Under the pieces are notes generated by a model, which saw only the letters and a list, made by a program, of their open reading frames with translations, ran no database searches and was not told the DNA's origin. From IMG/VR virus record IMGVR_UViG_3300035703_000058, positions 1-64,000 of that record: DNA of 64,000 bases. One strand, written 5' to 3'. Positions 25,983 through 64,000 of the stretch are shown here, in pieces; the first letter of the stretch is position 1, and each line of letters begins with the position of its first letter. Source of the stretch: a virus. The position numbers and the translations under genes were made by a program.

Positions 25983-28066
25983 CGCCGCGTTACAAAGCCG
26001 TAGACCTGTTCGCCGGGGGCGGCGGTGCCTCGCTGGGCATCGAGTGGGCGCTTGGCGTGCCGCCCGTGTTGGCGGTCAACCACTGCCCGGCGGCGATACA
26101 CATGCACGCCGCCAATCACCCACAGACGATACATCTTACCGAGGATGTGTTTGACGTTTCGCCGTGGACCGTACACACCGGCGGCAAGGGACTGGATCTG
26201 CTTTGGGCCTCGCCGTCCTGCACGCACTTCTCCAGGGCGCGAGGCGGTAAGCCAGTCCGCGAGCAATTGCGCACGCTCGGTTGGGTGGTGGTCGAGTGGG
26301 CGCGGGCCATCGCCCCCCGCGTAATAATCACAGAGAACGTTGCTGAGATGCTCACGTGGGGTCCGCTGAATGGCGACGGCACCCCGATCAAGGCGCGGGC
26401 GGGCGAGACGTTCCGGGAGTGGGTAAAAGCGCTCCAGCTCGCGGGATATCGTGTCGAGTGGCGCATCCTCAACGCGGCCGACTTCGGCGCGCCGACGCGC
26501 CGCAAGCGCCTGTTCATCGTCGCCCGGCGCGACCGTGAGCCGATCCGATGGCCGACACCGACGCACGGGAACGGGCTCGCACCGTGTGGGATCGTCGCCG
26601 ACTGCATCGACTGGAGCATCCCATGTCCGTCGATCTTCACCCGCAAGAAACCGCTGGCCGCCGCGACCTTGCGCCGCGTGGTCGAGGGCATCCGACGCTA
26701 CGTGCTGAACGGGCGACCCTTTCTGGTCAACCTCACGCACGGCGCCCGGGTGGAAAACGTCGATGAGCCCGCGCGCACCATCACCGGCGCCCACCGCGGC
26801 GAGAAGGCGGTCGTTGGTCCGCACCTGCTCAACCTGAGCCATGGCGGTCGCTCGGAGCCCGTGGACGAGCCGGCGCGGACCCTGACGGCGACGCCCAAGG
26901 GCGGTGACCGGATGGTGGTGGCGCCGATGTTCACCCGTGCGCATGGGCACGGCTGGGATTGTGGCGGTGGACCCTCAACACCGCCTGATGGGTTGCTGCC
27001 AACCCTGACGGCGACGGACGAGCACGCGCTGGGCGCCGGCCATCTCGTCAAGCTCTACGGCAAGTCCACCGTCGCGGACATCGCCGAGCCCATGCCGACC
27101 ATCACGGGCACCGACAAGCTGGGGCTGGCGTGCGCGTTCCTGGACAAGATGCGGGGCTCAGCGCGTGCGGGCCAGCGCATCGATCAGCTGGCGCCCACCG
27201 CGACCGCTGGAGGTGAGCATCAGGCGCTCATCGCGGCGAGCATCGTGCGCCACAACGGCACCACGCCCGGCCACGGCAACGCGGGCCGGGCGATGAACGA
27301 GCCCTTGGGCGCGGTGACCTCGGTGGACACCCACGGGCTGATGTCGGCCTATCTGGTGAGTACCGCGAATGGCGAGCGCGAAGGCCAGCGGCCACGAGCG
27401 CGGCCTGTCACCGAGCCGCTGACCACCGTGACCGTGACGGGCTCGCCGGGCGCCATCGTGGGCGTCGGCCTCGCCCGCTATCATGGTGAGCGGCGGGACG
27501 GGGAAAACCCCCGTGTGGATGCGCTGGATGCGGCCATGCCGGTCCAGACGACGGAGAACCGCTTCGGCCTGATCGCGGGCAGCCTCGTCGCCTACTACGG
27601 CTCCGAGACCGACGGGCAGGGCCTGAACGAGCCGCTGCGCACGGTGCCAACGAAGGACCGCTTCGCGCACGTCGATTGCGACCTTCGCCAGCAGCTCACG
27701 GACGCGCAGCTCGACACGGCGCTCGCGGTGGGTCAACTCCTGACCGCGCATGGCGTCGCGGTGGGTGCCGATGGCCTGGTGAGCCTGATTGTCGACGGCG
27801 AGCTGTACGTGCTCGTAGACATCGGGCTGCGGATGCTCACACCGCGCGAGTTGGCCCGGGCGCAAGGTTTCCCGGACACCTACCTGCTGACCGGCACCCG
27901 CAGCGAGCAGATCGCCCGCATCGGCAACAGCGTCTGCCCGCCCGTGGTGGAGGCGCTCGTTCGGGCGCAGCTTCGGCCCGAGACCGTGCGTTGGGTCGTA
28001 GATGACCCCCGCGGTGGTGTGCGCCGCCCACCTGTGCGCACACGCCAGACGAGCGCGCAGGCATGA
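25979..28066 (+). CDS. C5-cytosine DNA methyltransferase with long repeat-bearing insert
   Basis: Motif I is AVDLFAGGGGASLG at the N-terminus; the catalytic Cys is in ASPSCTHFSRA (about residue 82), motif VI is ENVAEM, motif VIII RKRLFIVARR, and motif X GNSVCPPVVEALV near the end. The 695-aa length is nearly twice that of a minimal Dcm. The extra 350 residues between motifs VIII and X are about eight degenerate units of the type EPxxTIT followed by GLxxAxLxxYxG, which replace the usual target recognition domain. ATGA overlap and GGGAG support the start. Confidence 0.88.
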   Translation: MTPRYKAVDLFAGGGGASLGIEWALGVPPVLAVNHCPAAIHMHAANHPQTIHLTEDVFDVSPWTVHTGGKGLDLLWASPSCTHFSRARGGKPVREQLRTLGWVVVEWARAIAPRVIITENVAEMLTWGPLNGDGTPIKARAGETFREWVKALQLAGYRVEWRILNAADFGAPTRRKRLFIVARRDREPIRWPTPTHGNGLAPCGIVADCIDWSIPCPSIFTRKKPLAAATLRRVVEGIRRYVLNGRPFLVNLTHGARVENVDEPARTITGAHRGEKAVVGPHLLNLSHGGRSEPVDEPARTLTATPKGGDRMVVAPMFTRAHGHGWDCGGGPSTPPDGLLPTLTATDEHALGAGHLVKLYGKSTVADIAEPMPTITGTDKLGLACAFLDKMRGSARAGQRIDQLAPTATAGGEHQALIAASIVRHNGTTPGHGNAGRAMNEPLGAVTSVDTHGLMSAYLVSTANGEREGQRPRARPVTEPLTTVTVTGSPGAIVGVGLARYHGERRDGENPRVDALDAAMPVQTTENRFGLIAGSLVAYYGSETDGQGLNEPLRTVPTKDRFAHVDCDLRQQLTDAQLDTALAVGQLLTAHGVAVGADGLVSLIVDGELYVLVDIGLRMLTPRELARAQGFPDTYLLTGTRSEQIARIGNSVCPPVVEALVRAQLRPETVRWVVDDPRGGVRRPPVRTRQTSAQA

Positions 28067-50766: not shown

Positions 50767-50806
50767 TCGCCCTTGACGCGCGGAAGCGACGCGCTACAGG
50801 TTGTAC

Positions 50807-50879
50807 TGCGACTTGACGCAGCGGTTAGCGTGCTGGCCTCATAAGCCGGAAGTCGGTGGTTCGAATCCACCAGTCGCTA
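50807..50879 (+). tRNA. tRNA-Met (anticodon CAT)
   Basis: A complete cloverleaf folds: acceptor TGCGACT/AGTCGCT (U1-U72 mismatch), D-stem ACGC/GCGT with loop AGCGGTTA, anticodon stem CTGGC/GCCGG with loop CTCATAA, T-arm GGTGG-TTCGAAT-CCACC. CCA is not encoded. The anticodon stem lacks the three G-C pairs of initiators, so it is an elongator tRNA-Met or, if modified, tRNA-Ile2. The 3' end overlaps the last three bases of the HTH gene of the CRISPR operon. Confidence 0.88.
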
Positions 50880-51239
50880 CTTCTCAGGCCGCTGGACGGG
50901 CCACGCAGCCCTCGGTCGACTGGCTGTCCCGCGCGCCCACCGCTTCGCGAGCTTCAACGCCATCGCGCCCGGACGTCGGCTGCTCGTGCTGGGCAGCACC
51001 TCAGCGGCCACGGCATTCCAGGACCCGAGCCGGACGAACGCCTCGTAGCACCGCGCCCCCGTCAAGCGCCCCGGCGGCCACGGCAGCCCGGCGAGTTGGG
51101 CGTATTCGAGGGCCAGCCGCCGGGCAGTGGCCCGGGGCACGTCCAACCGACCCGCGGCGCCGGTCAGCGAGCACCCGGCGACCATGAGCGCGTACAGGCG
51201 CTGACCGGTGTCCGGTGGATGCAGGCGCGGGCGGGTCAA
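50877..51239 (-). CDS. HTH protein at the 3' end of the type IV operon, 120 aa (TTG start)
   Basis: The TTG at 51239 overlaps the CysH stop as TTGA. Residues 12-45 (QRLYALMVAGCSLTGAAGRLDVPRATARRLALEYAQL) form a helix-turn-helix, and RLGSWNAVAAEVLPST with a basic C-terminal tail (AMALKLAKRWARG) could be a second. It has no match I recognise. Its stop (TAG) lies within the tRNA gene's last bases. It may regulate the operon. Confidence 0.55.
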   Translation of the reverse strand: MTRPRLHPPDTGQRLYALMVAGCSLTGAAGRLDVPRATARRLALEYAQLAGLPWPPGRLTGARCYEAFVRLGSWNAVAAEVLPSTSSRRPGAMALKLAKRWARGTASRPRAAWPVQRPEK

Positions 51240-52075
51240 GATACCGCCCGAACAGCCGGATCGATGTCGGCGGCGAGCTGCCACAGGTCGGGCCACCAGC
51301 GGCGCAGCCATGCGTAATGGCTGCCAATCGTCGCGGGCAGACCGCCCACGACCCACCAGCTCTTGCGCAGAGACAGCGCATCCATCCCCGGGTCAACGCA
51401 CAGATAGCAGGGCAGCAACGGCACCTGCTCGCGAACCAGGAAGGCGTGAACGTCGAGCGCGCTCCAGGCGGCGATGGGCTGGGCCACCGTGAGCCCGTCC
51501 TTGCGCCTGTAGACGCTGCCGCGGGTGGCGTTCATGGCGCGCCCCCGGCTCTCGCCAGCCCTCAGCCCGAGCAGCGCGCCATCGTAGCCATGGTGTAGAC
51601 GATGGGCGTTCAGCAGCCCATAGAAGTGCTCGGCGCTCAGCTCGGCGGTTCTGCCGTGGTGGTCGTTCAGCAGCGACCGCTGCCCGGCGAGCACCGACCA
51701 CAGCGACACACCGGGGCTCAGGATGTCCAGGTGCAGGCCAAGATGGCGGCAAAGGTGCTCGATGTAGGCCCGTTCGCCGGGGTAATCGAGGTCGTCCTTG
51801 ACGCTCACGGCGGGCGGGTGCCAACCATGCAGGGCCAGCAGCGCCGCCATGGCTGAGCTGTCCTTGCCGCCGCTCAGGCTCGCGCACCAACCCACCGACA
51901 CCGCCGCGGCCGCATCCAGCGCCCGTCGCGCGACTGTGATCTTGTGGTCCATGGCTCGGGAGCGCGCGTGCAACGCCACCGCCCGCCACGGATAGTGCAG
52001 GCCCACATCCGAACGCCCGGGCAACGCACCATCGCCGCACCAGGCGATGATCTGGCGGAGCCAGTCAGTCCTCAT
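51236..52075 (-). CDS. cysH: CysH-like PAPS reductase family protein of the type IV-B locus
   Basis: The 279-aa protein has the PP-loop SLSGGKDSSAMAALL (SGGKDS at residues 68-73) and the family R-x-x-E-S-R-G-R box (LGLRAGESRGRAMN), plus VAQPIAAWSALDVHAFL as in PAPS reductases and DndC. Two Cys near the C-terminus (PCYLCVDP) could bind an Fe-S cluster or zinc. Type IV-B loci carry a conserved CysH-like gene of unknown role. The start at 52075 overlaps ibrB by 11 bp. Confidence 0.75.
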   Translation of the reverse strand: MRTDWLRQIIAWCGDGALPGRSDVGLHYPWRAVALHARSRAMDHKITVARRALDAAAAVSVGWCASLSGGKDSSAMAALLALHGWHPPAVSVKDDLDYPGERAYIEHLCRHLGLHLDILSPGVSLWSVLAGQRSLLNDHHGRTAELSAEHFYGLLNAHRLHHGYDGALLGLRAGESRGRAMNATRGSVYRRKDGLTVAQPIAAWSALDVHAFLVREQVPLLPCYLCVDPGMDALSLRKSWWVVGGLPATIGSHYAWLRRWWPDLWQLAADIDPAVRAVS

Positions 52076-52658
52076 CGACCATCTCCCAGGCGCCGGAGAA
52101 CTCGACGTTGCGGAACAGCTCGGCGACCCCGGTCACCTGCTTGTAGCGGTAGATGGTGTCCAGGTCCACACCCAGGGCCAGGGCGATCTGTTCGTCCTCC
52201 ATGCCCTGCTCGCACATCCGGCGTATCAGGTCGGCGTCGAGGTCCACCTGATGCACGCCGCGGGCCTTGTTGAACTGCCACGTCGCCGCCAGCCGCCGCG
52301 ACAGATCGTGCGGCAACACCACCACGGGCAGGTAGTCACAGTCCAGCCAGTCCGGCCCCAGCACCATCTTGCGGTGGGCGCCGTCGATGACCACGAACAG
52401 GCGCTGCTCAGGATCGAACACGGTGACGATGGGAAAGCAAAACCCGTTGTCGAGCACCGACTGGAGCAGCAGCTCCATCTTGTCGGGGCTCACGCTGTTG
52501 GGGTTGTAGAAATTCTCGACTACCAGCTCCGCACGAACCAGCACGGCGCGCAGGCAGGGCACCGGAATGCGTCCGCGGGTCTTGGAGGTGATGTAGGCGC
52601 CCTCCGACCCCCCAGCGCGCCACGCCTCGAAGTCGGCCATCGTGTCGATCCTGAGCAT
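52065..52658 (-). CDS. IbrB-like ParB/Srx-family protein
   Basis: The 197-aa protein has YNPNSVSPDKMELLLQSVLDNG, VIDGAHRKMVLG (the ParB nuclease G-x-H-R-like motif) and FNKARGVHQVDL, then an HTH (MEDEQIALALGVDLDTIYRYKQVTG) and NVEFSGAWEM. These blocks follow IbrB, whose gene is always paired with the PAPS-reductase-like ibrA. TGATG coupling with the ibrA-like gene supports a functional pair. The biochemical role of IbrAB is not established. Confidence 0.75.
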   Translation of the reverse strand: MLRIDTMADFEAWRAGGSEGAYITSKTRGRIPVPCLRAVLVRAELVVENFYNPNSVSPDKMELLLQSVLDNGFCFPIVTVFDPEQRLFVVIDGAHRKMVLGPDWLDCDYLPVVVLPHDLSRRLAATWQFNKARGVHQVDLDADLIRRMCEQGMEDEQIALALGVDLDTIYRYKQVTGVAELFRNVEFSGAWEMVDED

Positions 52659-53791
52659 CAGAGCACCTCGGCGTAATGGGCGATGAGCGCGTCGCGGGGG
52701 TCGGCCTTGTTGTCAACCGGCAGGTTGTTCTCGTAGTCGTTGAGAACGAGCTGGCGGCATTGCTGCCGGGCCACGAACTCATTGTCCAGGTGCCCGCCGA
52801 ACCGGCGACGTAAGATGTCCGCCTTGGCCGGATCCGGGTGGGTCGCCAACAGGAAATCGCGGTAGACCCGCCACGAACGAAAGTTCTTCGGCAGCTTGCG
52901 GCATCGAAACAGCGTCGCCGCCTTGGCCGTTTCCTGCGCAAGCGCAATGCCCCTGATGCGCTTCTGCAGCCGCGCGTAGGTCTTGGGCTCAAAGGCAGGC
53001 AGGTCGGCCAGCGCGCGAAAGCTGCGCTCGTGTATGAGCGAAGACACTCGCCGCTCGCCCAGCGGGTAGCCCATCTTGTGCTGGAAGTCGTAGACCCTGG
53101 AGTACCTGAGCCCCTCCATGGCGATGTACTTCCAGACATCGTGCGCGTTCCAGTCGTAGATCGGGTAGAGCGTGACGGTGCTCGCCCGGCGTGTGCCCCA
53201 ATAGACGCGCTGGCCGTCGCCGATCTCGATGGGGTGCTTGGTGACCGCGCGCCAGCGGTTCGGGCTCTCTCCGGCGGCGCGCAGGCCGACCAGAAAGGCG
53301 TGGCCGGGGTAGCAGCGGGCGAAAGTCTCGATCACGTCGTAGAAGCCAAAGCCCTTGTTCCGGTCGCGCACGGTGACCTGCTCGGGCGCCCACGGTGGGT
53401 GCTGGATGGCGTCGCGCTCCTTTGCGCGCATCCAGGTTTTGTGCTCCCCCGGCTCCCAGGCGTTGAGCTGACCTTCGGTCAGGCTGGTCGCGTTGGTGAG
53501 GCGGAAAGGCACCTGAAGCCACAGCGGCCGCGTGTTCTCCGGGTACAGCGCCATCAGGTAGCGCACCTGCTCAACGCTGCTCTGGTACATGACCTCCTCA
53601 TCGAGCAGGTGTACGCCGATGCGCAGCCCCCGGCGGTTGGCCTCCACCAAGGCAAGATGAGCCAACACGGTGCTGTCCTTGCCGCCGCTCACGCTGACGA
53701 TCACCTTGTCGCCGAAGGCGTCGAAGACCATGCGGACACGGCGCTGGGCAGCGGCGAGCACGGTCTCACCCGTGTAGTGCTGTCGCGACAT
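52658..53791 (-). CDS. IbrA-like PAPS reductase family protein (DUF3440-like C-terminus)
   Basis: The 377-aa protein has SVSGGKDSTVLAHLAL at residues 33-48 (PP-loop), LVGLRAAGESPNRWRAV and TVTLYPIYDWNAHDVWKYIA, all of the PAPS reductase/DndC superfamily, and a C-terminal DUF3440-like part (ERRVSSLIHERSFRALADL). It is the partner of the ParB-like gene. It may modify DNA or RNA using ATP/sulfate chemistry; this is inferred from the family. Confidence 0.75.
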   Translation of the reverse strand: MSRQHYTGETVLAAAQRRVRMVFDAFGDKVIVSVSGGKDSTVLAHLALVEANRRGLRIGVHLLDEEVMYQSSVEQVRYLMALYPENTRPLWLQVPFRLTNATSLTEGQLNAWEPGEHKTWMRAKERDAIQHPPWAPEQVTVRDRNKGFGFYDVIETFARCYPGHAFLVGLRAAGESPNRWRAVTKHPIEIGDGQRVYWGTRRASTVTLYPIYDWNAHDVWKYIAMEGLRYSRVYDFQHKMGYPLGERRVSSLIHERSFRALADLPAFEPKTYARLQKRIRGIALAQETAKAATLFRCRKLPKNFRSWRVYRDFLLATHPDPAKADILRRRFGGHLDNEFVARQQCRQLVLNDYENNLPVDNKADPRDALIAHYAEVL

Positions 53792-54668
53792 CGCGCACCC
53801 TCCCAGCCCACGCGGTGTAACGGTCGAAGTACCAGCGGTCTACGGCGAGATCCGACACCAGCAGGGTGGCGTTGGCCTGACGGGTCACGGCCAGCGCGTC
53901 GGCGTAGTCGACGAAGTTGTGGGGGACCTCCAACAACAGGCGCGCACGGTCGTCGGCCACGTCGCGAAAGGTGGCCACATCACCACCAAGACGCTGGTTG
54001 CGGGCGAGGTAGGCGTGTCCGTTCAAGGCGCGAAATCGAGCACCACCCCCGACAAGCGCAAGGTTGCGGGGCAGGACGTGGGGGTCCTTGTCGCCGTCTT
54101 CACGCAGCTCGGCGAGCAGGCGTGCCTTCGTCGCGGCGTATGTCGCTTTGGTTCTGGCGTCGGTCTCCACAGCGCGCACGGTGAAGGCGGGCAACAGCGA
54201 ACGACCCACCACCCGCACCTCAGAGAGCATCGACGGCGCGAAGGCGTCGCGCTTCCACTTCGACCGCGTGACCCAGTCGATGAGGATCATGACGTCGTCG
54301 GGCTCGGCGATGATTGGCAAGGTCTGAAAGACCAGGACGTGCGGCGTGCGCTGGAGGTAGTTGCGCAGGCAGTTGTAGCCGAGATCGTGCCGGTTCTGCG
54401 TGCGCAATCCTTCATTGACCACGATCAGGGTGTCGGGGTCGATCCGCTCCAACAGCGGGTAGTAGTACCGGTACATGACGATGTTGGGCCAGTCGATGAA
54501 CAGGCCGGGCGCGCCGATCTCGGTGCTGGGGTCCAGCAGCTCACGATCCCAGCCAGGCAGGCAGAACCGGCGCGGCGTGAAGACGACGACCTTGGTGAGC
54601 CCGCGCTCCACCATCGTCGCGCGGATCATCTCGGCGCGCTCGACGGGGGTGTGGCCCAAGCAGATCAC
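53766..54668 (-). CDS. Unknown protein in the type IV operon, 300 aa (GTG start)
   Basis: The GTG at 54668 overlaps the methyltransferase stop (GTGA) and begins MICLGHTPVERAEM. No family recognised. Visible segments are TKVVVFTPRRFCLPGWD, MYRYYYPLLERIDPDTLIVVNEG, NCLRNYLQRTPHVLVFQTLPII and YFDRYTAWAGRVRD. Alternating strands and helices suggest a Rossmann-like N-terminal half; the QTLPII and NEG parts resemble phage proteins of nucleotide metabolism, but this is a guess. Overlap of 26 bp with ibrA. Confidence 0.6.
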   Translation of the reverse strand: MICLGHTPVERAEMIRATMVERGLTKVVVFTPRRFCLPGWDRELLDPSTEIGAPGLFIDWPNIVMYRYYYPLLERIDPDTLIVVNEGLRTQNRHDLGYNCLRNYLQRTPHVLVFQTLPIIAEPDDVMILIDWVTRSKWKRDAFAPSMLSEVRVVGRSLLPAFTVRAVETDARTKATYAATKARLLAELREDGDKDPHVLPRNLALVGGGARFRALNGHAYLARNQRLGGDVATFRDVADDRARLLLEVPHNFVDYADALAVTRQANATLLVSDLAVDRWYFDRYTAWAGRVRDVATALHG

Positions 54669-55315
54669 GGGGTCACCGTGTAGCCGCGCCTGACCAACCA
54701 GGCGACCGTCCTGGCCAACCGCTTCGGGTTCAGTTCGCTCCCGATGGCGTTCAGCCCGTAGTGGTGGGCCATGCGGCTGGTCATTCCCAAGCCCATGCAG
54801 GGGTCGCACACCCAGTCGCCGGGCGTGAGGGCGAGCCCATCAAAGACGCGGCGGGTCATCGCCTCACCGTGCAGGCCGGTGGGGTCCGTGACGATGGGGG
54901 TGCGGCCGAAGTGCAGCAGCAGGTTGGGCAGCAGGCGAGAACCGCTGCCGTAGAGGACCGCGTAGCGCCCGATGTCCGGCAGCATCCACCCTGGCAGGGT
55001 GCCGGCCACGTCCAGCAGCATGCCGTGGTGCTTCGGGTTGGTCGCCTGCTCCACCAGGACGTCGTCCGCGCCCCGGGCCATGCACGCCACGGCCACCGAG
55101 CACCACGCGCGGAGAAAGGCGTCGTAGGAGTCGCACCGCTCGCGACCCGCGTGGGTGCGCCAGTAGGTCGCGTTGCCAGGGTTCCAGGGCGGATCGCTGT
55201 AGACCAGACGGACACGATCGGGAAGGTGTGCCTGATACCACGCCAGCGTGGTCGGGTCTTGCAGGTCCCCACACAGCAAGAGCTGGCGTTGCTGCCCGCG
55301 GGTGCAAACGTACAT
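54665..55315 (-). CDS. DNA methyltransferase (DPPW motif) in the type IV operon
   Basis: The ATG at 55315 (MYVCTRG) lies 2 bp after the csf3 stop. The 216-aa protein has LVYSDPPWNPGN (motif IV DPPW) near residue 45, and ALTPGDWVCDPCMGLGMTSRMA (motif I DPxMGxG) near residue 170, then AIGSELNPKRLA, a complete small beta-class enzyme (N4-cytosine or N6-adenine). It may mark self DNA or act in counter-defence. It is not a usual member of type IV-B loci. Confidence 0.8.
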   Translation of the reverse strand: MYVCTRGQQRQLLLCGDLQDPTTLAWYQAHLPDRVRLVYSDPPWNPGNATYWRTHAGRERCDSYDAFLRAWCSVAVACMARGADDVLVEQATNPKHHGMLLDVAGTLPGWMLPDIGRYAVLYGSGSRLLPNLLLHFGRTPIVTDPTGLHGEAMTRRVFDGLALTPGDWVCDPCMGLGMTSRMAHHYGLNAIGSELNPKRLARTVAWLVRRGYTVTP

Positions 55316-55317
55316 GC

Positions 55318-56028
55318 TCACTCCGACGGGCGCGCCTGCCAGCACGCCACCCGCTGCCCGCCGTAGTAGGGCGGACGCAGCGGCAGAAGGGTTTGGACGG
55401 TGTGGGCGGGTGGATTGGACGCCCGCCCCACGGGGAGGTGTCGGAGCCGCACATCGTCGAGGTAGTCGCCCGGGGCGGGACCGCCCACGGCGACCCGCCA
55501 GCCATCAACCCAGCCGATGCCATGGCAGCCCAACCCGCCGATCGCCGGCACCGGCGCGAGCAACCTGCCGAGCTGGTCCAGCGGCGCCAGATCCCAGCCG
55601 AGCGTGCGGTTGACCTCGCCGACGCGGGCCTCGTCCAGCACGCCGGTCCACACCAGCTCGCGGCACGCCGCCCACAGGTGCTTGCGCACGCGCAGGCTCT
55701 TGTCGGGGCCAGCCTTCATGTCCACGGGCCCGCCGGCCCGATGGCGCATGTACCAGTCCACAGGTGCCCGGCGGTGCAGGTGGTGGGTGCGTTCAGGCCC
55801 GACCGGCGCCGCCTGAGAGGCTGCCCACCACCACAGACCCCCGTCGGCGACAACCGCCGCGAACGGCAGCAGGTCCCATACACGCGGGTTGTAGGCCGGG
55901 TGGGCGACCGGGTCCAGCCGATTCAGCCACATCGCCAGCCCAACCCCCGCGAGCGCGTCCAACATCGGCGGGTTGGGCAGGTTCGGCCCGGGCGGGCGCA
56001 GCGCCGCCGTGACGGTGACCGGAATCAC
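55318..56028 (-). CDS. csf3: Type IV-B Cas5 (Csf3)
   Basis: The GTG at 56028 overlaps the Cas7 stop (GTGA). The 236-aa protein begins with a RAMP strand (MIPVTVTAALRPPG), then NPPMLDALAGVGLAM (a Csf3-type P-x-L-D-x-L-L-A block), VDMKAGPDKSLRVRKHL in the middle and GLGCHGIGWVDGWRV, the glycine-rich loop of Cas5/RAMP proteins. It would cap the 5' handle of the crRNA in the effector complex. Order after Cas7 is as in other type IV loci. Confidence 0.78.
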   Translation of the reverse strand: MIPVTVTAALRPPGPNLPNPPMLDALAGVGLAMWLNRLDPVAHPAYNPRVWDLLPFAAVVADGGLWWWAASQAAPVGPERTHHLHRRAPVDWYMRHRAGGPVDMKAGPDKSLRVRKHLWAACRELVWTGVLDEARVGEVNRTLGWDLAPLDQLGRLLAPVPAIGGLGCHGIGWVDGWRVAVGGPAPGDYLDDVRLRHLPVGRASNPPAHTVQTLLPLRPPYYGGQRVACWQARPSE

Positions 56029-57053
56029 GACAGCCACGCCAGGATGCGGTCGCGGCGGTCGGCCAGATGTGCCCGCAGCGCCCCCGCACACTGCTCGTCC
56101 GCGGCGTCCATGGTCGCCACCGGGGCGGCGTCGGTCACCGTGAAGGGCGCCGCCGGTTCGAGCTGCCAGGCGCCCCGCACGCGCACCGACAGGGCACCGA
56201 AGTTCTCCCGGGCCACACCGCCCACACGGGCGCCTGAGCGAATCCAGTCCGCGATCGCCAGCAGCAGCGTCCACAGCTCCACCTCGGTGGCGTTCACCAG
56301 CCGGACCTCGCCGATCAGCGGCACCCCCGCGGAGATCGCCTCGTAGGCGTAGGGCATGGACTCGTTGGCCCGGCGGCGCTCCACCGCGCCCACCTTGCCC
56401 CCACCGGCCCGCCGCTCGGCCAGCACACCTGCGTGGACGGCCTGCACCCGCTCGTCCACCGCGAGCAGGAGCGCGGCCGTGGAAGAGCTGGCGAGATCAT
56501 GGCGATATCGCTGTTCGGTGTGGGTGGCCTGCGCAAGCGCAACGGGGCCGCGCCGATCTGCAAACACCGGCTCGGCGCGCCCGTCGATGGTCGCCACCGC
56601 CGGCTGCAGCCCCGCCGCGACGGCCTCCTGTGCCCACACCGCGAGCCCCGCCACCTGCACGGCGCCGCGGTTGGGTGTGCCGGCGTCCATCGACCCGAAC
56701 ACGCCCAGCAGGGGGCAATTCTGCCGCAGCTCCCACTGCTCCAGGGCGTTGTACCCGCCGACGTCGCCCTTCTCGTAGCGCCCGCCCTTCAGCAGCAGGC
56801 GCAGCCGGTCCCGGCCCAACTGCTCGATGCCCAACTCGGCGAGGTAGCGGGCGACGGCGTGCTCGCGCAGCGTCGCCTTGAGCGCCGCCCCGGACAGCAT
56901 CGGCACCAACAACTCCCGGTAGTCGCCGAGCGTGTCATCCCACACCACCATGCGCTGCCGGCGCAGCACCTGCTCGTTGCCCTCGGTGCTCTCGCCGTGC
57001 GCGAGCGGGGCGAGGGTGACGGCGGTGAGGTGAAACACGTAGGAGGCGATCAT
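56025..57053 (-). CDS. csf2: Type IV-B Cas7 backbone subunit (Csf2)
   Basis: The 342-aa protein starts MIASYVFHLTAVTLAPL at an ATGA overlap. Cas7 features are a RAMP strand at the N-terminus, SGAALKATLREHAVARYL, GSMDAGTPNRGAVQVAGLAVW (about residues 112-133) and, at the C-terminal part, LLLAIADWIRSGARVGGVARENFGALSV with the Gly-rich motif. Its length fits Csf2 of type IV. It would polymerise along the guide RNA. Confidence 0.82.
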   Translation of the reverse strand: MIASYVFHLTAVTLAPLAHGESTEGNEQVLRRQRMVVWDDTLGDYRELLVPMLSGAALKATLREHAVARYLAELGIEQLGRDRLRLLLKGGRYEKGDVGGYNALEQWELRQNCPLLGVFGSMDAGTPNRGAVQVAGLAVWAQEAVAAGLQPAVATIDGRAEPVFADRRGPVALAQATHTEQRYRHDLASSSTAALLLAVDERVQAVHAGVLAERRAGGGKVGAVERRRANESMPYAYEAISAGVPLIGEVRLVNATEVELWTLLLAIADWIRSGARVGGVARENFGALSVRVRGAWQLEPAAPFTVTDAAPVATMDAADEQCAGALRAHLADRRDRILAWLS

Positions 57054-57580
57054 GCGGACTCTCCGGGCGGTGTGGAAACCAAAAGGGCCGGCCTGGAAAG
57101 GTTTCCGGGCTGGCCGGCAAGCGAATCCGGGGCCGCGGCAAGATCGCGCACCAGCTCGCGGGCGACGTTGGCGAGGGTCAACGCGACGGGCAGCGTGGTG
57201 CCGCCAAGCAGGGCAGCGACGTGGCGGCCCGGCTGGGCGTCGGCGGCGCGCACCCACAGCGTCTCGTCATCGCTGAGCCAGCGCCCACCCCGCATGCCCA
57301 GCTTCTCCCCGAGCTTGACGGCCAACTCGTGCAGGCTTCTCGGGCTGGTTCGGGCGACGGCGCGCACCCGGGCCTCAAAGGCGTCGCGGTTCTCGTGATG
57401 CGGCTTGGACCGCCGCAACACCGCGTCGGCGGCGAAGGCGCGGCTCCAGGCCAACGCGAGCACCACGGTCAACTCGGCGCCACCCATGCGGCGCTCCCGC
57501 GCGTCGAAGCCAAGCGCGGGGTTGTCGGCGATGGGGCCGATGTCGCCCACGGCGACCGCGTAGAGGTCAAGGTGACGCAT
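57050..57580 (-). CDS. cas11: Type IV-B small subunit (Cas11-like)
   Basis: The 176-aa protein (MRHLDLYAVAVGDIG) is mostly helical, with no conserved catalytic residue, and lies between csf1 and csf2, exactly where type IV-B systems encode Cas11. Segments LTVVLALAWSRAF and TLANVARELVRDL are typical of the helical bundle. It overlaps csf1 by 14 bp. Assignment rests on size, composition and position. Confidence 0.65.
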   Translation of the reverse strand: MRHLDLYAVAVGDIGPIADNPALGFDARERRMGGAELTVVLALAWSRAFAADAVLRRSKPHHENRDAFEARVRAVARTSPRSLHELAVKLGEKLGMRGGRWLSDDETLWVRAADAQPGRHVAALLGGTTLPVALTLANVARELVRDLAAAPDSLAGQPGNLSRPALLVSTPPGESA

Positions 57581-58565
57581 CGCGGCCTCGCAGTTCGCCG
57601 ACAGGGCGGCGCAGATAGAGGGCGAGGTCCAGCAACGGGCGGTGCCGATGCTTGGCGATCGTGGGCCCATGCTGGGCGATCAGCGGCAGCGCCTCTGCCC
57701 CGCCGCTGTAGGCGCCGCTGACGAGGGCCTCTTCGCGCACCCCCGCCAGCAACAGGGCCTCGATGGCTTCGATCAGCCGCGCGAGTGTCGGCGCCCTGTA
57801 GGTGATGCTCTGCCCGGCGAACCAGACGACCCGCGGCGCGCCCGGCCGCCACTGCTCGGGCATCGCGAAAAGCGCGCAATGCTTCTTCTCGACGCTCAGC
57901 ACGTTGGCGCCGAGGTGGCCGCCGTCGAGGTCGTCGCGCAGCAGGTGGCGACGCATCGCGGGCTTCTCGGCGTCGGTCATCGGGCGCCAGCGCGGCATGC
58001 CGTTCGGGTCGGGCAACGTGACGTGGTGCCAGACGAAGAACCGCTGCTCCAGCCCCGGAGCGAGGCGGTCGGCCGGGTAGGCGCCGACGTAGCGGACGGG
58101 GCCAACGTCGCCGGGCGCGACGCGCTGGCGGTCGAGCTGTGCGGCCCACGCATCCTCCGCGCTCTTCGGCGTCGCGGGCGTCCACAGCCCGATCGTGCCG
58201 TCCGCAAGCTCCAGCACGAGGCGCTTCTGTGCGGGCGCGCCGTCGATGCAGACCTCGGTGCGCCGGTTGCCCCGCCAGGCCAACGTGGCACGCTCCCGCA
58301 GACGCTCGGCCGCGAGCGACCCGGGCAACGCAAAGCCACTCGCCAGCGTCCACCCACAGGCGGCGCACAGGTGGGTCGCGTGGCCAGCCCGGGCGAAGTC
58401 ACGGGCCGGAAACGTGTCGGGCAGCAACCGCAGCGGCCACCCCTCGCCGGACGCATTCACCCCACACCACCAGCAGGGACCGGTGTAGGCGGTAAAATCG
58501 GGATGTGTGGGGCGGCCTGCGGCCTCCCACAGCACCCATGTCGCGCTCGGCATCATGTAGGCCAT
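57567..58565 (-). CDS. csf1: Type IV large subunit (Csf1, Cas8-like) with zinc finger
   Basis: The 332-aa protein (MAYMMPSATW) has a four-Cys zinc finger, CWWCG (C31, C34) and HLCAACG (C67, C70), the characteristic Csf1 N-terminal finger, with PARDFARAGHATH between. The C-terminal part is helical and includes ALLLAGVREEALVSGAYSG. The start at 58565 has only a weak ribosome binding site; ATGs at 58556 and 58553 are alternatives. As the large subunit it would recognise target DNA. Confidence 0.82.
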   Translation of the reverse strand: MAYMMPSATWVLWEAAGRPTHPDFTAYTGPCWWCGVNASGEGWPLRLLPDTFPARDFARAGHATHLCAACGWTLASGFALPGSLAAERLRERATLAWRGNRRTEVCIDGAPAQKRLVLELADGTIGLWTPATPKSAEDAWAAQLDRQRVAPGDVGPVRYVGAYPADRLAPGLEQRFFVWHHVTLPDPNGMPRWRPMTDAEKPAMRRHLLRDDLDGGHLGANVLSVEKKHCALFAMPEQWRPGAPRVVWFAGQSITYRAPTLARLIEAIEALLLAGVREEALVSGAYSGGAEALPLIAQHGPTIAKHRHRPLLDLALYLRRPVGELRGRDASP

Positions 58566-58596
58566 GTACCCCAACGGGCCACAACGCGCAACCCTG

Positions 58597-58947
58597 CTAC
58601 TCGGCGACCGACACCGCCCCCGCCAGCCACGGCCCAAGCGGCGGCGGCAGCTTCGCCGCGTACAGCGCCAGCACCGCGGCGTCCACCACCTCGTCGTGGC
58701 CGGCATCGCGCAGCCCACGCCCCAGCCCGGCGAGCGCCACCACCAACAGGGACAACAGATCCAGGTTAGCCCGCGCCGCAGACGCCAACAGGCGCCCGAT
58801 CGGGGTGTCGTCGAGCGTCATCCCGTAGACGACATCGGCGATGACGATGGCGTCGCGGGGGTCGTCGGGATCGTGGGGACCCAGCTCGGGCTGGGTCGCG
58901 CCAGGGCAACCGTGGATCAGGTCGGTCAACTCGCACAGGTCGTACAT
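58597..58947 (-). CDS. Small protein at the head of the type IV operon, 116 aa
   Basis: GAGGTG precedes the ATG at 58947 (MYDLCELTDLIHG). A helical middle (ANLDLLSLLVVALAGLGRGL, then VVDAAVLALYAAKLPP) follows an acidic N-terminus (HDPDDPRDAIVIADVV). It is the first gene of the operon, 31 bp upstream of csf1. Family not recognised; an extra subunit or regulator is possible. Confidence 0.6.
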   Translation of the reverse strand: MYDLCELTDLIHGCPGATQPELGPHDPDDPRDAIVIADVVYGMTLDDTPIGRLLASAARANLDLLSLLVVALAGLGRGLRDAGHDEVVDAAVLALYAAKLPPPLGPWLAGAVSVAE

Positions 58948-58977
58948 CGGCACCTCGTCTGGTACATGGCGCGAGCA

Positions 58978-59051
58978 GGCGAAGTGTGAATCTTTTTCTG
59001 CATGTTGGCGCGTTGGTTAGCTCGGCCATCGGACCGGTTGTACACTTCGCC
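58978..59051. repeat. 10-bp inverted repeat upstream of the type IV operon
   Basis: GGCGAAGTGT (58978-58987) and ACACTTCGCC (59042-59051) are perfect inverted copies separated by 54 bp. The gap 58948-59163 separates the operon (minus) from the lipoprotein gene (plus). The repeats may be operators for one or both promoters. No CRISPR-like repeat is present here. Confidence 0.45.
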
Positions 59052-59114
59052 AACGTTCGGCCTTTCCGCGTGGGGCCGTGAATGGCGCCGACCCCCGGTG
59101 CGTCTACGCGCGAC

Positions 59115-59143
59115 TTGCCACCAAAGGCTGTCCGGCGTAGAGT
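59115..59143 (+). promoter_or_regulatory. Sigma-70-type promoter of the lipoprotein gene
   Basis: TTGCCA (59115-59120) and TAGAGT (59138-59143) are separated by 17 bp, 21 bp before the ATG at 59164. AGGAG at 59154-59158 supplies the ribosome binding site. Confidence 0.5.
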
Positions 59144-59163
59144 GGCGGTCAAAAGGAGTCCCC

Positions 59164-59727
59164 ATGCTCACACTCGCTCTTCTCGCCCTGCTCGGATGCG
59201 CCCCCACCTGCAACGAGGTGGAGGGGGCGATCTGTGCGGACGACGTTCAGGCGCTGCAGGAGCGTATGGACCAGCTCGAAGCCGCTGGCGCCACCTACGC
59301 CTGGTTCGACCAGGACGGCGTCCAGGTGACCGATGGGCCGGAGCTGGTGTGGTTTGACGAGGCGGGGGTGCTTTGGCAGGTGGACGCCGATCGAGGCATC
59401 CCCGACGCCTACGCCACCGAATACGACGTGGCGGGAACGGTCTTCCACATGACCGAGGACTGCTCGGACCCCGGCTACTACGGCGGGTTGGCCTCGCCCA
59501 AGGTGGCCTTCTACAACGGGGACGCCCGCGACGATTACCCGGTCTACGTGCGCGATGCGTCACCCGACGAGATTTACGCCCGGGCCGTGGCTTACGAGGC
59601 CGATAGCGGCGAGTGCCGCGAGGGCGGGCCGAATCGTGACCAGCACCTGGTTCCGACGACCGAGCTGCACGAGATTGCCCGACCCGATGTGGTGTGGCCA
59701 GCCCCGCTCTACCCGAAGACCTTGTAG
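59164..59727 (+). CDS. Putative lipoprotein, 187 aa
   Basis: MLTLALLALLGCAPTC has a short hydrophobic signal and an LLGC lipobox (Cys12), so the protein would be exported and lipidated. After it come NEVEGAICADDVQALQERMDQLE, a coiled coil, and a Trp/Asp-rich domain (YAWFDQDGVQVTDGPELVWFDE). Its own promoter and opposite orientation to the genes on both sides mark it as a moron. A surface change during lysogeny, for instance superinfection exclusion, is plausible but unproven. Confidence 0.65.
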   Translation: MLTLALLALLGCAPTCNEVEGAICADDVQALQERMDQLEAAGATYAWFDQDGVQVTDGPELVWFDEAGVLWQVDADRGIPDAYATEYDVAGTVFHMTEDCSDPGYYGGLASPKVAFYNGDARDDYPVYVRDASPDEIYARAVAYEADSGECREGGPNRDQHLVPTTELHEIARPDVVWPAPLYPKTL

Positions 59728-59733
59728 CGGGGA

Positions 59734-60942
59734 CTACATTCCAGGCGCCTGGATGTGGCCCTCGGTGTACTCGACCGTCACGTCGGCTACCTTGCAGCCA
59801 CCGCCGGTCTTGTCCAGTATCAAACGCCAAAAGTAGTAGTACGTACTCGGATCCAGCGTTTGACTGATGGCCCCGGAATCAAACAACGTCCAGGCGCCCG
59901 TGGTTGCGAATTCGGTGGCCTCGGTGTAGTTGAGTAGCACGCCCTCCGCACCTGCTCCGTTTCTGGCCACCCTCACAAATTCCAAGCTGAGCTGGTCACC
60001 CGCGGCGTTGCGGTTGTAGCGCAACTTGATCTGGGTGATGGCCCGCCTCGCACCCGCATTGATCGCCGTAGTGGTGTTCACCGGCAGCACCAACGGCCGG
60101 ATGAGCGGCACATAGGTGCCGTCGGTGGGCTCCACATACGGAGGTGTCGCGCCCACGAACATCGTCAGCGTGCCATAGGCGCCTGACCCATCCTGGATCA
60201 TGCTCACCCACCCACCCGCATAGGGCGAGATATCCAGCTCAAAGGTCTGTACGCTGGAGTAACGGACGAAGGTGTTGTCGACCGCGTACGGCTCCAAGGT
60301 CACACCCTCGTTGGCGGTCAGGAGTCCCGCCGCCGTGAGGGCCGCCTGCACGTTCACGCTGCCATCCACGTCCAGGTTCGCCACCCCCGCCCCGGTGTTC
60401 CGCACGTAGAGGGTCTGGTTGGAGCCGCTGCTGACCTCGAAGGCCCAGGCCGCCGACGCCGCCAGCGTAGACCGCCACACGCCGCCGACCAGCTCCAGCT
60501 CCACCCGCGTCGCCGAGCCGATGGCGTCAACCTGCAGGATGACCGCCTCGGCGAGCGAGGCACCAACCCCGATCGTCGCGGTGTTGTCGCTGGCCCGCCC
60601 GGCGTCTCGGAACTCCAGCCGCCCGCCCTGACCGGCCCCGGTGCCCTCGCCGCGGATGACGACGGAGTCGCACACGATGTCCTCATGCGACCCGTCGGCG
60701 ATGGCGCCGCCGAAGGCGTCGGTGGTGTTGGCGGTGTAGTGCTCTTCGGCGAAGGGGGTGCCAGCCTCGTTGGTGAGCCACTCCAGATACTCCCCGATCT
60801 CGTAGAGCGCGCGGTTGAGTTGCGAGGCCGTCAGCAGGTCGTAGCTGGCGTAGCCGTCCAGCCGGAGCTGGTTGGGCAGCACGGTGGAGGCGGGTGGCGA
60901 CGTGGTGGCCCACTGGAAGACGGAAAAGGCGGGGATGGCCAC
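59734..60942 (-). CDS. Tail fibre / receptor-binding-like protein, 402 aa (GTG start)
   Basis: The GTG at 60942 follows AGGAG (MAIPAFSVFQW). The N-terminus (SYDLLTASQLNRALYEIGEYLEWL) is a helical attachment part; then come beta-rich repeats (ASDNTATIGVGASLAE, LEPYAVDNTFVRYSS) and a C-terminal domain (GGWVSMIQDGSG, STYYYFWRLILD). The place after the gpI-like gene fits a fibre. It ends 6 bp from the lipoprotein gene's stop. Confidence 0.7.
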   Translation of the reverse strand: MAIPAFSVFQWATTSPPASTVLPNQLRLDGYASYDLLTASQLNRALYEIGEYLEWLTNEAGTPFAEEHYTANTTDAFGGAIADGSHEDIVCDSVVIRGEGTGAGQGGRLEFRDAGRASDNTATIGVGASLAEAVILQVDAIGSATRVELELVGGVWRSTLAASAAWAFEVSSGSNQTLYVRNTGAGVANLDVDGSVNVQAALTAAGLLTANEGVTLEPYAVDNTFVRYSSVQTFELDISPYAGGWVSMIQDGSGAYGTLTMFVGATPPYVEPTDGTYVPLIRPLVLPVNTTTAINAGARRAITQIKLRYNRNAAGDQLSLEFVRVARNGAGAEGVLLNYTEATEFATTGAWTLFDSGAISQTLDPSTYYYFWRLILDKTGGGCKVADVTVEYTEGHIQAPGM

Positions 60943-60950
60943 GGGGGCTC

Positions 60951-61538
60951 CTACGGGTAGAGTTGGCGGGAGAGGGCGCCCGCGCCGAACCCGGCGGGGG
61001 TGGCGTTGGCGGGGGACTCGAAGCCGACCGGGCTGGCGGTGTACTCGACCAGCAGCATGGTCACCCCGGCGGGCTTGATGGCGACCATGAAGCGCATCAC
61101 CCGGCCCAGCAGGGCGTCGGCCAGCGGGGTGGAGCGCCCGAAGTACAACCGAAACCCGGCGGCGAACATGTCGTAGTGGACCGCCACGCAGGGCGCGGCG
61201 ATCAGCTCCAGGATGGCCAGCAGCTCGTCCGGTGTGCCGTTGCACTTCCTGGCGAGCAGACGCGCGGCGATGAAGCGCCGGTAGTCGGCGTCGTCCAGCC
61301 CTTCGCGGCGCTCGCCGACGATGGACCCGAGCAGGTCCAGGTCCGCGTCGTTGGCGGTGTCAAGCCCGAGCGCCAGGGCCCGGGCGGCGATCTCGTCCTC
61401 CAGCACCTGACAGCCGTGGGCGAGCGCGCGGACGAACGCCTCCAGGCGCGGCTTGCCATACAGGCCGGCGGGCAGGTTGTTGACGGCGGCGTCGCCGATG
61501 AGGAGGTTGTGTACCAGCTCGTAGGTGTCGGAGGCCAT
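60951..61538 (-). CDS. Baseplate protein (gpI/DUF2612-like), 195 aa
   Basis: TGATG coupling with the gpJ-like gene. The helical protein has LHNLL-type NLLIGDAAVNNLPAG, DLDLLGSIVGERREG and DDADYRRFIAARLLARKCNGTPDELLAILELIAAP, typical of DUF2612/gpI proteins linking baseplate and fibre. Confidence 0.75.
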   Translation of the reverse strand: MASDTYELVHNLLIGDAAVNNLPAGLYGKPRLEAFVRALAHGCQVLEDEIAARALALGLDTANDADLDLLGSIVGERREGLDDADYRRFIAARLLARKCNGTPDELLAILELIAAPCVAVHYDMFAAGFRLYFGRSTPLADALLGRVMRFMVAIKPAGVTMLLVEYTASPVGFESPANATPAGFGAGALSRQLYP

Positions 61539-62725
61539 CAGGTCGTGACGCTCGCGGTGCCGTTGAGGGTGCAGCGCTCGTAGAGGTTCGGGGTGACGAC
61601 GGCGGCGCCGTTGAGGGTGATGGCGCTGACGCGGCGGACGCCGGTCACCCGCATGATGGCGGTGTCGTCTTCGTCGTCGTTGCGACCGGCCTTGAGGTCG
61701 TCGTCGGTGATCTCCTCACCGATGGCGGCATCGGCGAAGTAGGCGGCCACGGCGTCTTTGACGGCTTGCGAGACGTCGGCCAGCACGTAGCCGGTGTCCA
61801 GCACCACCGTGACGGCGACCGTCACCGACAGATCGGCGACGTCATCCCACCGAACTGTTTTCGTCAGCCCATCGCCGCCCGTGATGGTGACGACGTTGTC
61901 GCTCCCGTTGGTCTTGATGCCCGCGGCCAGCCGCTCATAGACGGTCTCGGCGATCTCTTCCTTCTGCGCCGTCGTGAGGTCGGCGCCGGGCGGATCGAGG
62001 ATGATGGCGATGGACTGTGGGTCAAGGTTGACGCCGCCGGTCGTCACCGAGGCGGCGGTGTCGTTCTCGATGACGATGGCCGTGTCGATGTAGTCGAGGT
62101 CGGTCAACGCGGCCCGGATGGCGTTCGTTGAGCCCGACCCGGCGAACTGCAGCGAGGCCGCCTGTCGCAGCCGGTAGGCGCTGTCCGTCTCCAGGGCGCG
62201 GCCCGCGGTGGCGGCGGCCGCGTTGGACACCGCGGTCCAGCCGGAGACCGGCGTCACGATGGTGTCGATCTCGGTGGCGAGCGCGGCCACCGCCCCGGCT
62301 TCGACGGCCTGCACGGTCGCCGACACGGTGCCCCCGCCGCCGATGGTGGCGTCGTCGGTCAGCGCCCACCGGGCCGCGCCGTCGGTGCCGCCGCCCTCAA
62401 CAATCTTGCCCTGTGGGATGACGGTGCCGGCGGTGCCGGTGAGGGTAACGGTCGCCGTCGAGTGGGTGGCCTGGTTGCGGGCGATGCCACGAAGGGCGCC
62501 GATGCCGTCGAGCTGCGTACCCTGCGCGGAGTCGGGGTCAAGCTGGTCGTTGAGCGACTGCAGGGCTTCGCCAAGGTTGCCCAGCTCGTTGGCGAGCACC
62601 GCGAAGAGCACATCGAGCAGATCGCCGCGCCCGACCTCCACGGTGCCGCCGTTGGCGTCGGCGGCGAAGGCGGAGCGCATTGCGGTGTCGAAGTCGGTCG
62701 CGCGGGGCGCGGAGTAGCTGGCCAT
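61538..62725 (-). CDS. Baseplate J-like protein (gpJ)
   Basis: The 395-aa protein shows the gpJ plan: GDLLDVLFAVLANELGNLGEAL, QGTQLDGIGALRGIARNQAT, a beta domain with TVIPQGKIVEGGG, VTPVSGWTAVSNAAAATAGRALETDSAYRLRQA (the conserved NP-x-G-W-like block) and VTITGGDGLTKTV. It is a wedge component of the baseplate. Confidence 0.85.
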   Translation of the reverse strand: MASYSAPRATDFDTAMRSAFAADANGGTVEVGRGDLLDVLFAVLANELGNLGEALQSLNDQLDPDSAQGTQLDGIGALRGIARNQATHSTATVTLTGTAGTVIPQGKIVEGGGTDGAARWALTDDATIGGGGTVSATVQAVEAGAVAALATEIDTIVTPVSGWTAVSNAAAATAGRALETDSAYRLRQAASLQFAGSGSTNAIRAALTDLDYIDTAIVIENDTAASVTTGGVNLDPQSIAIILDPPGADLTTAQKEEIAETVYERLAAGIKTNGSDNVVTITGGDGLTKTVRWDDVADLSVTVAVTVVLDTGYVLADVSQAVKDAVAAYFADAAIGEEITDDDLKAGRNDDEDDTAIMRVTGVRRVSAITLNGAAVVTPNLYERCTLNGTASVTT

Positions 62726-62731
62726 GGTGTC

Positions 62732-63157
62732 CTATGGCGCCGTGGGCGCCACCACGATGGCGCGCGGGCGAATGGTGATGGCGGGGTAGGTGTTGCCGCC
62801 GACCGCCGTGGGCGTCGCGACGATCTCCAGGTGCGTGCCGTCGGCGGTGACGGCGTTGCCGGTCACGGTGAGCAGGCCGGTGGTGCGGTTGAGGCTGCCG
62901 GTCCAGTCGGAGACGCTGACGACGCCGACGGTCTCCCGGACTTCGCGGCGGACCCGGGCCACGATGGCGTCCACGGCGACCGGCTTCGTGGTGAGCCAGA
63001 CCACGTACGGGAGGCCCTTCGTGGCGTCGCGCAGGCCCTCACCGAGATGGGTCGTGAGCCGGATGTAGACGCGCTGCGCGACCAGCTCGGCGCCGACGTG
63101 GGGCCGGCCATACAGCGGCAGATCGCCATCGGTGTCCAGCGCAAGGTCAATCGGCAT
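62732..63157 (-). CDS. Baseplate wedge protein (gp25/gpW-like), 141 aa
   Basis: The protein (MPIDLALDTDGDLPLYG) has QRVYIRLTTHLGEGLRDATKGLPYVVW, the core of the gp25-like family that nucleates sheath on the baseplate, and RVRREVRETVGVVSV, NGxxxx-type C-terminal strands. There is no lysozyme catalytic set, so it is structural. It starts next to the strong hairpin at 63161-63198. Confidence 0.75.
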   Translation of the reverse strand: MPIDLALDTDGDLPLYGRPHVGAELVAQRVYIRLTTHLGEGLRDATKGLPYVVWLTTKPVAVDAIVARVRREVRETVGVVSVSDWTGSLNRTTGLLTVTGNAVTADGTHLEIVATPTAVGGNTYPAITIRPRAIVVAPTAP

Positions 63158-63160
63158 GGT

Positions 63161-63198
63161 GGGGGGCTATCGCGCCTCGCGGCCCGCGATAGCCCCCC
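63161..63198. repeat. Perfect 14-bp inverted repeat (hairpin) between divergent tail genes
   Basis: GGGGGGCTATCGCG (63161-63174) and CGCGATAGCCCCCC (63185-63198) pair fully around a 10-nt loop. It lies only 3 bp before the wedge start codon and 19 bp before the plus-strand GTG. No T-tract follows on either side, so it is not a simple terminator. It could block ribosome access, stop transcription or be a protein-binding site. Confidence 0.75.
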
Positions 63199-63217
63199 GG
63201 CAGACCCGGAGCAGCGC

Positions 63218-64000
63218 GTGGCCTCGCTACCCCAGAACGTGAACATCATCGGTGAGCTGTCAGCGTGCCGCCGGCCATCGTGGACCCGGCTGGTGACGAC
63301 GGCTATCACGTCGGCGCCCGATGCCGCCGACGATGGCGTCAGCCTCGCCGACGCCGCGAGCCCGGCGTCGCGCATCATGATCTGCCTACGTGAAGACGTG
63401 TGGCGCCGCACCGCCCGGGTGACGGTGACGACCCGTGACGCCGCGACCAACTACACGGTCACCGTCAACGGCACCGCCATCGCCACCACCACCGGCGCCT
63501 TCGCCACCAACGACGCCATCCTCGTTGAGCTGAAGGCGAAGATCGCCGCCGATGCGACCGTGGGCGGCGCTGCGGCCACGCCGATCGTCACCAGCTACCT
63601 CGTCGACAGCAACGGATCGACCACCGTGGGCACCGCCGGGGGCGGCAACGCCGCGGTGGCGCTCATCGTCATCGGGCTGGCACAGACCGACTACTCGATC
63701 GCCGTCTCGGCGGGCGGCACCGGCGTGCTCGCCTGCAAAGCGGATCCGCTGACCGCCACTGCCTACATCTACGTGACCGCCGATGGCGTCGCCAACGGCG
63801 CCACCACGAACAAGCCCGCTACGACGGATTGGGCGCTCATCGACGATGGGTCGAAGTCGGTCACCTACCGCGGGTTGGCCCTGAACCTCAACACGGGCGG
63901 CTGGGAACGCCTGCATGTCGAGCTGGGCTCCATCGCCGGACACGCCAGCGACGGCGGCTCCGTCACCTACACCGACACCAACTCCCCCCAGGTCTTCATC
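63218..64000 (+). CDS. Partial phage structural protein running off the right edge
   Basis: The GTG at 63218 follows GGAG; the frame is open for 261 codons to the end. It begins MASLPQNVNIIGELSAC; the middle is beta-rich with Thr/Ala/Gly (ATNYTVTVNGTAIATTTG; LIVIGLAQTDYSIAVSAGG), a composition like the cement protein and other virion proteins of this phage. The N-terminal part (DAASPASRIMICLREDVWRR) is different. A tail or head surface protein is likely; family not recognised. Confidence 0.6.
   Translation, partial: MASLPQNVNIIGELSACRRPSWTRLVTTAITSAPDAADDGVSLADAASPASRIMICLREDVWRRTARVTVTTRDAATNYTVTVNGTAIATTTGAFATNDAILVELKAKIAADATVGGAAATPIVTSYLVDSNGSTTVGTAGGGNAAVALIVIGLAQTDYSIAVSAGGTGVLACKADPLTATAYIYVTADGVANGATTNKPATTDWALIDDGSKSVTYRGLALNLNTGGWERLHVELGSIAGHASDGGSVTYTDTNSPQVFI

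Follow-up and report, generated by a model that had tools for sequence, protein, structure and literature searches.

A type IV-B CRISPR–Cas operon of a tailed phage encloses a recurrent, exchangeable cassette of a DNA methyltransferase, a predicted inactive Snf2-like protein and IbrA–IbrB

The first 64,000 nucleotides of the 75,417-base IMG/VR virus record IMGVR_UViG_3300035703_000058 (the whole stretch analysed here, called the window) carry a phage-borne type IV-B CRISPR–Cas (csf) operon on the minus strand (51236–58565), with the gene order csf1, cas11-like, csf2, csf3, methyltransferase (MT), a gene for a 300-amino-acid (aa) protein, ibrA, ibrB and cysH. The MT gene and the trio formed by the 300-aa gene, ibrA and ibrB constitute a separate, widespread phage cassette, which in the window lies between csf3 and cysH. 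The csf part starts with csf1 (57567–58565, 332 aa, start codon uncertain), encoding the type IV Cas8-like large subunit (PADLOC typeIV_Cas8, 2.3e-8). It continues with a cas11-like small subunit gene (57050–57580, 176 aa), for which no informative family or profile match was found and which is named only from its fitting place between csf1 and csf2. Next are csf2 (Cas7; 56025–57053, 342 aa; typeIV_Cas7, 7.8e-32, with a partial TIGR03115 match below cut-off) and csf3 (Cas5; 55318–56028, 236 aa; typeIV_Cas5, 1.6e-10).

The cassette opens with the MT gene (54665–55315, 216 aa), whose product is a DNA methyltransferase of N6/N4 type (PF01555, 8.4e-7; DPPW followed by DxCxGxG). The 300-aa gene (53766–54668, GTG start), left as unknown in a preliminary description made from the sequence alone, encodes what an AlphaFold2 model and a structure match suggest to be a miniature, catalytically dead Snf2-like protein. 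It is followed by ibrA (52658–53791, 377 aa), encoding a PP-loop ATPase with a 3′-phosphoadenosine-5′-phosphosulfate (PAPS) reductase domain and DUF3440 (PF01507, PF11922; phrog_2302, 5.6e-69), and by ibrB (52065–52658, 197 aa), encoding a ParB-like protein (phrog_2159, 3.3e-35) with a C-terminal helix-turn-helix (HTH)-like region (HTH_7, 6.7e-5, just under cut-off). Last, cysH (51236–52075, 279 aa; PF01507, 1.7e-10) encodes the type IV-B CasCysH, a PP-loop ATPase without a conserved cysteine.

The gene content given in the preliminary description, with two PAPS-reductase-family proteins, an IbrB/ParB-like protein and a DPPW methyltransferase in one tight minus-strand operon, was borne out by Pfam, PHROG and motif matches. 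Its further claim, that all these genes are coupled to the cas genes by overlapping starts and stops, holds for every junction except one: neighbouring genes overlap by 14, 4 and 4 nucleotides (nt) from csf1 to csf3 and by 4, 26, 1 and 11 nt from MT to cysH, but csf3 and MT are separated by 2 nt unless an upstream GTG (55321) serves as the MT start. The string of genes is not a chance arrangement because the same string recurs across many other viruses. CRISPR array-like repeats were found neither in 50800–64000 of the window nor in 64001–75417 of the record. Upstream of csf1, a 118-aa open reading frame (58597–58953, minus strand) gave no library match and no relative among the fetched loci.

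Recurrence and exchange of the cassette beside csf genes

A scan of IMG/VR with IbrA returned 41 close relatives (L003–L043), and a scan with the family of the 300-aa protein added 26 more contigs, giving 67 in total. Scans with single proteins, either the window's 300-aa protein (viral contigs, phages) or its Csf2 (these and plasmids), were empty because both are too diverged, so the relatives were reached through IbrA; an alignment of diverse Csf2 proteins likewise held no conserved stretch usable as a scan query. Of 65 testable loci, 64 have ibrA directly after the 300-aa gene in the same orientation; ibrB comes next, and nearly all intact cassette loci have MT either ahead of the 300-aa gene or behind ibrB. 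Two successive ibrA–ibrB pairs of different subfamilies occur in L009 and in L010.

By the PADLOC profile, csf2 is present in 19 of the 67 cassette contigs and in none of 80 control phage contigs, which were fetched through an unrelated accessory gene of the window, a DNA methyltransferase (Fisher p = 7e-8). The link persists after clustering of IbrA at 90% identity with the control contigs unclustered (15 of 51 clusters with csf2; p = 2e-7). For background, a less sensitive search with one Csf2 query gave one match among 50,697 phages and 69 among 72,556 plasmids; tallies of csf2 over whole GTDB genomes are left out of the counts, since matches there include other Cas7 proteins. The single phage record detected by that query is Skermania phage SPI1 (L189), in which the genes are annotated as hypothetical. 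A quick tree of IbrA requires 11 or more switches between presence and absence of csf, and well supported branches force at least three of them.

The other 48 contigs carry the cassette without type IV csf2; several are long (54–137 kb), and because viral contigs are fragments the absence of csf may be incomplete. The preliminary description had proposed a combined system, to be rejected if ibrAB, the methyltransferase and the 300-aa gene occurred in the same phage position without csf genes. As an obligate fused system this proposal is not supported, because the cassette is free-standing in these 48 of 67 contigs. What stands is a recurrent, non-random partnership with a swappable cassette, which lies beside csf far above background and often inside the csf–cysH operon.

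The two parts occur together in several gene orders (ARRANGEMENTS), and they are contiguous on one strand in 17 of the 19 csf2-bearing contigs, the exceptions being L004 (convergent neighbours on opposite strands) and L006 (about 10 kb apart). The order of the window, whose conservation in other type IV-B loci the preliminary description had wanted checked, recurs in L110, L124 and L128. In L041, L141, L170 (a Chloroflexi metagenome-assembled genome) and L109 (where the last gene encodes a PAPS-reductase-family protein) the order is csf, the trio, MT and cysH. Elsewhere csf–cysH precedes the cassette (L007, L008, L020, L026, L030, L032, L108, L114 and L171, the last being the genome of Caldicoprobacter algeriensis TH7C1, with both csf and cassette) or the cassette precedes csf1–csf2–cysH (L023, L024). 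Placement of the cassette between csf3 and cysH, within the csf operon, is found in several diverged lineages. The csf-type CysH adjoins csf and does not adjoin the csf-less cassettes, so that CysH belongs to csf, as is known (PMC8175902, PMC7937560). A truncated csf2 of 107 aa (7873–8196) accompanies intact csf1, cysH and cassette genes in L032 (the same contig as L104), whose csf operon is perhaps decaying beside the cassette.

Closely related loci reveal exchange of the trio. The DNA of L020 and that of L114 agree at about 95% around the locus (Csf1, Csf2 and CysH 96%, MT 91%), but from the start of the 300-aa gene to the end of ibrB the identity falls to 56–68%. The borders are sharp, and the 250-base block that follows is again 94% identical. 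Between L020 and L108, Csf1, Csf2 and CysH are 100% identical, whereas the 300-aa protein, IbrA and IbrB are 43%, 64% and 58% identical, respectively. Exchange thus takes in all three genes of the trio together and leaves csf–cysH–MT beside them unchanged, which is how a specificity or conflict cassette behaves.

A related linkage exists on archaeal plasmids. On haloarchaeal plasmids of Natrinema and Halomontanus, a gene for an IbrA-like DUF3440 PAPS reductase followed by a ParB-like gene stands beside csf, and in Halomontanus these two and a GNAT gene are placed between csf3 and cysH. The GNAT acetyltransferase gene of this plasmid type IV-B locus lies between ibrB and cysH (L195, 10928–11314). 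In Actinarchaeum, csf is followed downstream by cysH, a PF01555-like methyltransferase gene, ParB_N and a DUF3440 PAPS reductase gene. Altogether, three haloarchaeal plasmids share a DUF3440 PAPS reductase and ParB near csf. Known type IV-B loci had been said to carry one CysH-like gene; the window does have two PAPS-reductase-family proteins, but in this it is not unique.

Cassette proteins and the phage that carries them

In MT, DPPW (residues 41–44) and DxCxGxG are almost invariant across 75–77 relatives; the IbrA PP-loop SGGKDS is invariant (81/81), as is DGxHR of IbrB (76/76), and CysH keeps its PP-loop SxGKDS in 19/19 with no invariant Cys. With this loop, N-type ATP pyrophosphatases adenylate a substrate. 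The cysteines of IbrA include a single near-conserved one, Cys345 (70/76), and alignments of relatives contain no conserved cysteine cluster in either IbrA or CysH. The arrangement that characterizes IbrA/IbrB pairs, a PAPS_reduct and DUF3440 protein adjoining a ParB-like protein, is true of the window and of L003–L043. The window CysH is 36–40% identical to CysH of the csf loci L008, L020, L108, L110 and L114; a PDB sequence match to subtilisin was set aside as chance.

The 300-aa protein belongs to a family that is undescribed in the libraries searched: it had no family match by itself, a profile of its family matched no PDB sequence, and the family had no match in 50,697 phage records. Its AlphaFold2 model (pLDDT, predicted local distance difference test, 94.3; 36 aligned relatives) has two predicted RecA-like lobes, and its whole chain fits the two-lobe Snf2 motor, with the match to CSB (9hwg_b) covering 286 residues at 3.3 Å (VIA Z 19.2) and full-length matches to CSB and other Snf2 motors at Z 15–19. 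It also resembles phage Snf2-like proteins in BFVD, and compared with an ordinary Snf2 core it lacks about 150 residues. A canonical Walker A motif (GxxxxGK[ST]) is retained in one of 82 relatives (L020, GLDDAGKT) and lost in the other 81; at this site a G and a K/R six residues apart remain. A DExH box was found in 0 of 82. Because both motifs are gone, the protein is probably a shrunken Snf2-like fold without motor activity. The conserved R89, R93, N99, C100 and RNxR (223–226) are candidate functional residues.

Terminase, portal, major head protein and tail sheath genes identify the carrier as a tailed phage with a contractile tail. Outside the operon it encodes a Mom-family DNA modification protein (1201–2157, minus strand; PF25680, 5.3e-23; phrog_1384, 1.1e-26) and, in a row on the plus strand, three more DNA methyltransferases (23385–24305, 24302–25399 and 25928–28066), and so invests in DNA modification. 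A tRNA-Met(CAT) gene (50807–50880, plus strand), the only Rfam match, is flanked by the late gene operon on one side and by the end of the csf operon on the other; it is possibly a captured host tRNA or an attachment site. No relatives of the window's terminase turned up in a scan, which left no near-identical phages to compare with this one at the equivalent position.

Function of the csf–cassette partnership

The most likely role of the cassette is in marking or handling phage DNA during virus–host or virus–virus conflict. This role is favoured because of the PP-loops, the IbrB and MT motifs, and the Mom-family protein and methyltransferases of the phage, together with the absence of a Dnd desulfurase and DndD. 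We propose, tentatively and at somewhat short of an even chance, that the cassette acts on phage DNA and is joined by the Csf ribonucleoprotein (RNP) and CysH as a partner. IbrB, through its ParB and HTH parts, and the dead Snf2-like clamp would bind DNA and choose the site of action, IbrA would use its PP-loop and ATP to activate a substrate or nucleotide, and MT would methylate DNA. The outcome would be phage DNA that is marked or protected in conflicts with host defences or rival elements, with the Csf RNP and its own PP-loop ATPase, CysH, serving the same task without being essential to the cassette.

Several observations weigh against this proposal. Most csf plasmids inspected (Rhodococcus, Cellulosimicrobium, Thermococcus) are without IbrAB, 23 csf2 contigs fetched independently, from one csf2 branch, are without the full cassette (in four of them, L084, L092, L095 and L103, another IbrAB pair adjoins csf), and the control contigs were picked by a single gene. 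IbrA and IbrB have been described as co-activators of prophage gene expression and not as modification enzymes (PMC4490671), and the co-location may reflect a common accessory-gene hotspot. Neighbourhood without cooperation, in which both parts consist of genes for counter-defence or conflict that have gathered in a shared phage accessory hotspot, is a serious rival, though we judge it unlikely on balance. The csf-less cassette contigs, the independently fetched csf contigs and the variable gene order, including the separated parts in L004 and L006, fit it. It accounts poorly for the contiguous same-strand arrangement in 17 of 19 contigs, the overlapping or nearly overlapping junctions of the window, the insertion inside the csf operon in diverged lineages and the like placement of a related DUF3440–ParB pair in one haloarchaeal plasmid.

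IbrA–IbrB, named as a regulator in E. coli, could instead control transcription here together with the dead Snf2-like protein, governing csf or phage genes. Exchange of the cassette is reminiscent of how phages swap their immunity regions, and IbrB has an HTH-like region. IbrA/B are described as prophage co-activators or regulators (PMC4490671, PMC8813620). The invariant IbrA PP-loop and the frequent DNA methyltransferase partner point to chemistry, however, and in csf loci the trio lies inside or beside the operon on the same strand, not separately placed, which makes regulation a good deal less probable than mere neighbourhood. Bolder is the idea that the type IV-B RNP, CysH and the IbrAB–pseudo-Snf2–methyltransferase cassette form an RNA-directed, or RNA-gated, phage machine that modifies DNA; we consider it improbable. 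Slightly more doubtful still is RNA-guided modification, with the Csf RNP delivering CysH, IbrAB and the methyltransferase to selected places on DNA. Operon fusion, its recurrence and the near-constancy of CysH in type IV-B (PMC7937560, PMC8175902) agree with such guidance, but no array lies near the operon, the single IV-B complex studied binds heterogeneous RNA (PMC8175902, PMC7937560) and the cassette persists in many csf-less phages.

Least probable by far is Dnd-like phosphorothioation of the DNA backbone. In its favour, DndC and DndB find a parallel in the PAPS-reductase-family and ParB-like proteins, and both DndH and PglZ include dead Snf2 domains (PMC12839542). However, the 75-kb record has no PF00266 match that would indicate a cysteine desulfurase (DndA/IscS), for which a host enzyme could serve, and no match to DndD; DndE also had no match in the record, in a search whose control matched nowhere either. 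IbrA, with its one near-conserved cysteine, lacks the DndC-type cluster. The sulfur chemistry suggested in the preliminary description thus found no support in desulfurase, DndD or the cysteines of IbrA and CysH.

The function of type IV-B and its near-constant CysH are open questions in the CRISPR field (PMC7937560, PMC8175902), and an RNA-directed or RNA-gated DNA-modifying machine, if true, would supply the long-missing function. The statistically strong link to a single defined cassette in phages, which has a related form on archaeal plasmids, gives type IV-B concrete partner genes, and C. algeriensis TH7C1 is a named strain with both parts. A search of the open-licence literature returned no publication that connects IbrAB with type IV CRISPR.

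Comparison with known systems

The window shares with type IV-B CRISPR–Cas csf1, csf2 and csf3, a cas11-like gene by position, a cysH with an intact PP-loop and the lack of an array, and its CysH is without the catalytic cysteine, as in that type (PMC8175902). It differs in that csf3 and cysH are separated by four added genes, one of which encodes a second PAPS-reductase-family protein. Fuxivirus, a Bathyarchaeia virus, also encodes a type IV-B system with CysH adjoining Csf3; in the portions of that source available, IbrAB, a Snf2-like protein and a methyltransferase go unmentioned for its operon, unlike that of the window (PMC10848311). A PAPS-reductase-family ATPase, a ParB-family protein and an inactive Swi2/Snf2 domain are likewise known from Dnd phosphorothioation and type 4 BREX (PMC12839542), whereas the window operon has a methyltransferase in place of a desulfurase, DndD or cysteine cluster. 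The 300-aa protein probably shares the fold of Snf2/superfamily 2 ATPases and, without Walker A and DExH, would not be an active member. IbrA–IbrB of E. coli prophages, of Flavobacterium phages FCL-2 and 6H and of Mycobacterium and Streptococcus phages pair, as here, a PAPS reductase and DUF3440 protein with a ParB-like partner. The window IbrA forms a subfamily of its own, about 33–35% identical to Flavobacterium phage IbrA, and pairs of its type differ from the known ones in always standing with the predicted dead Snf2-like protein and usually with a DNA methyltransferase.

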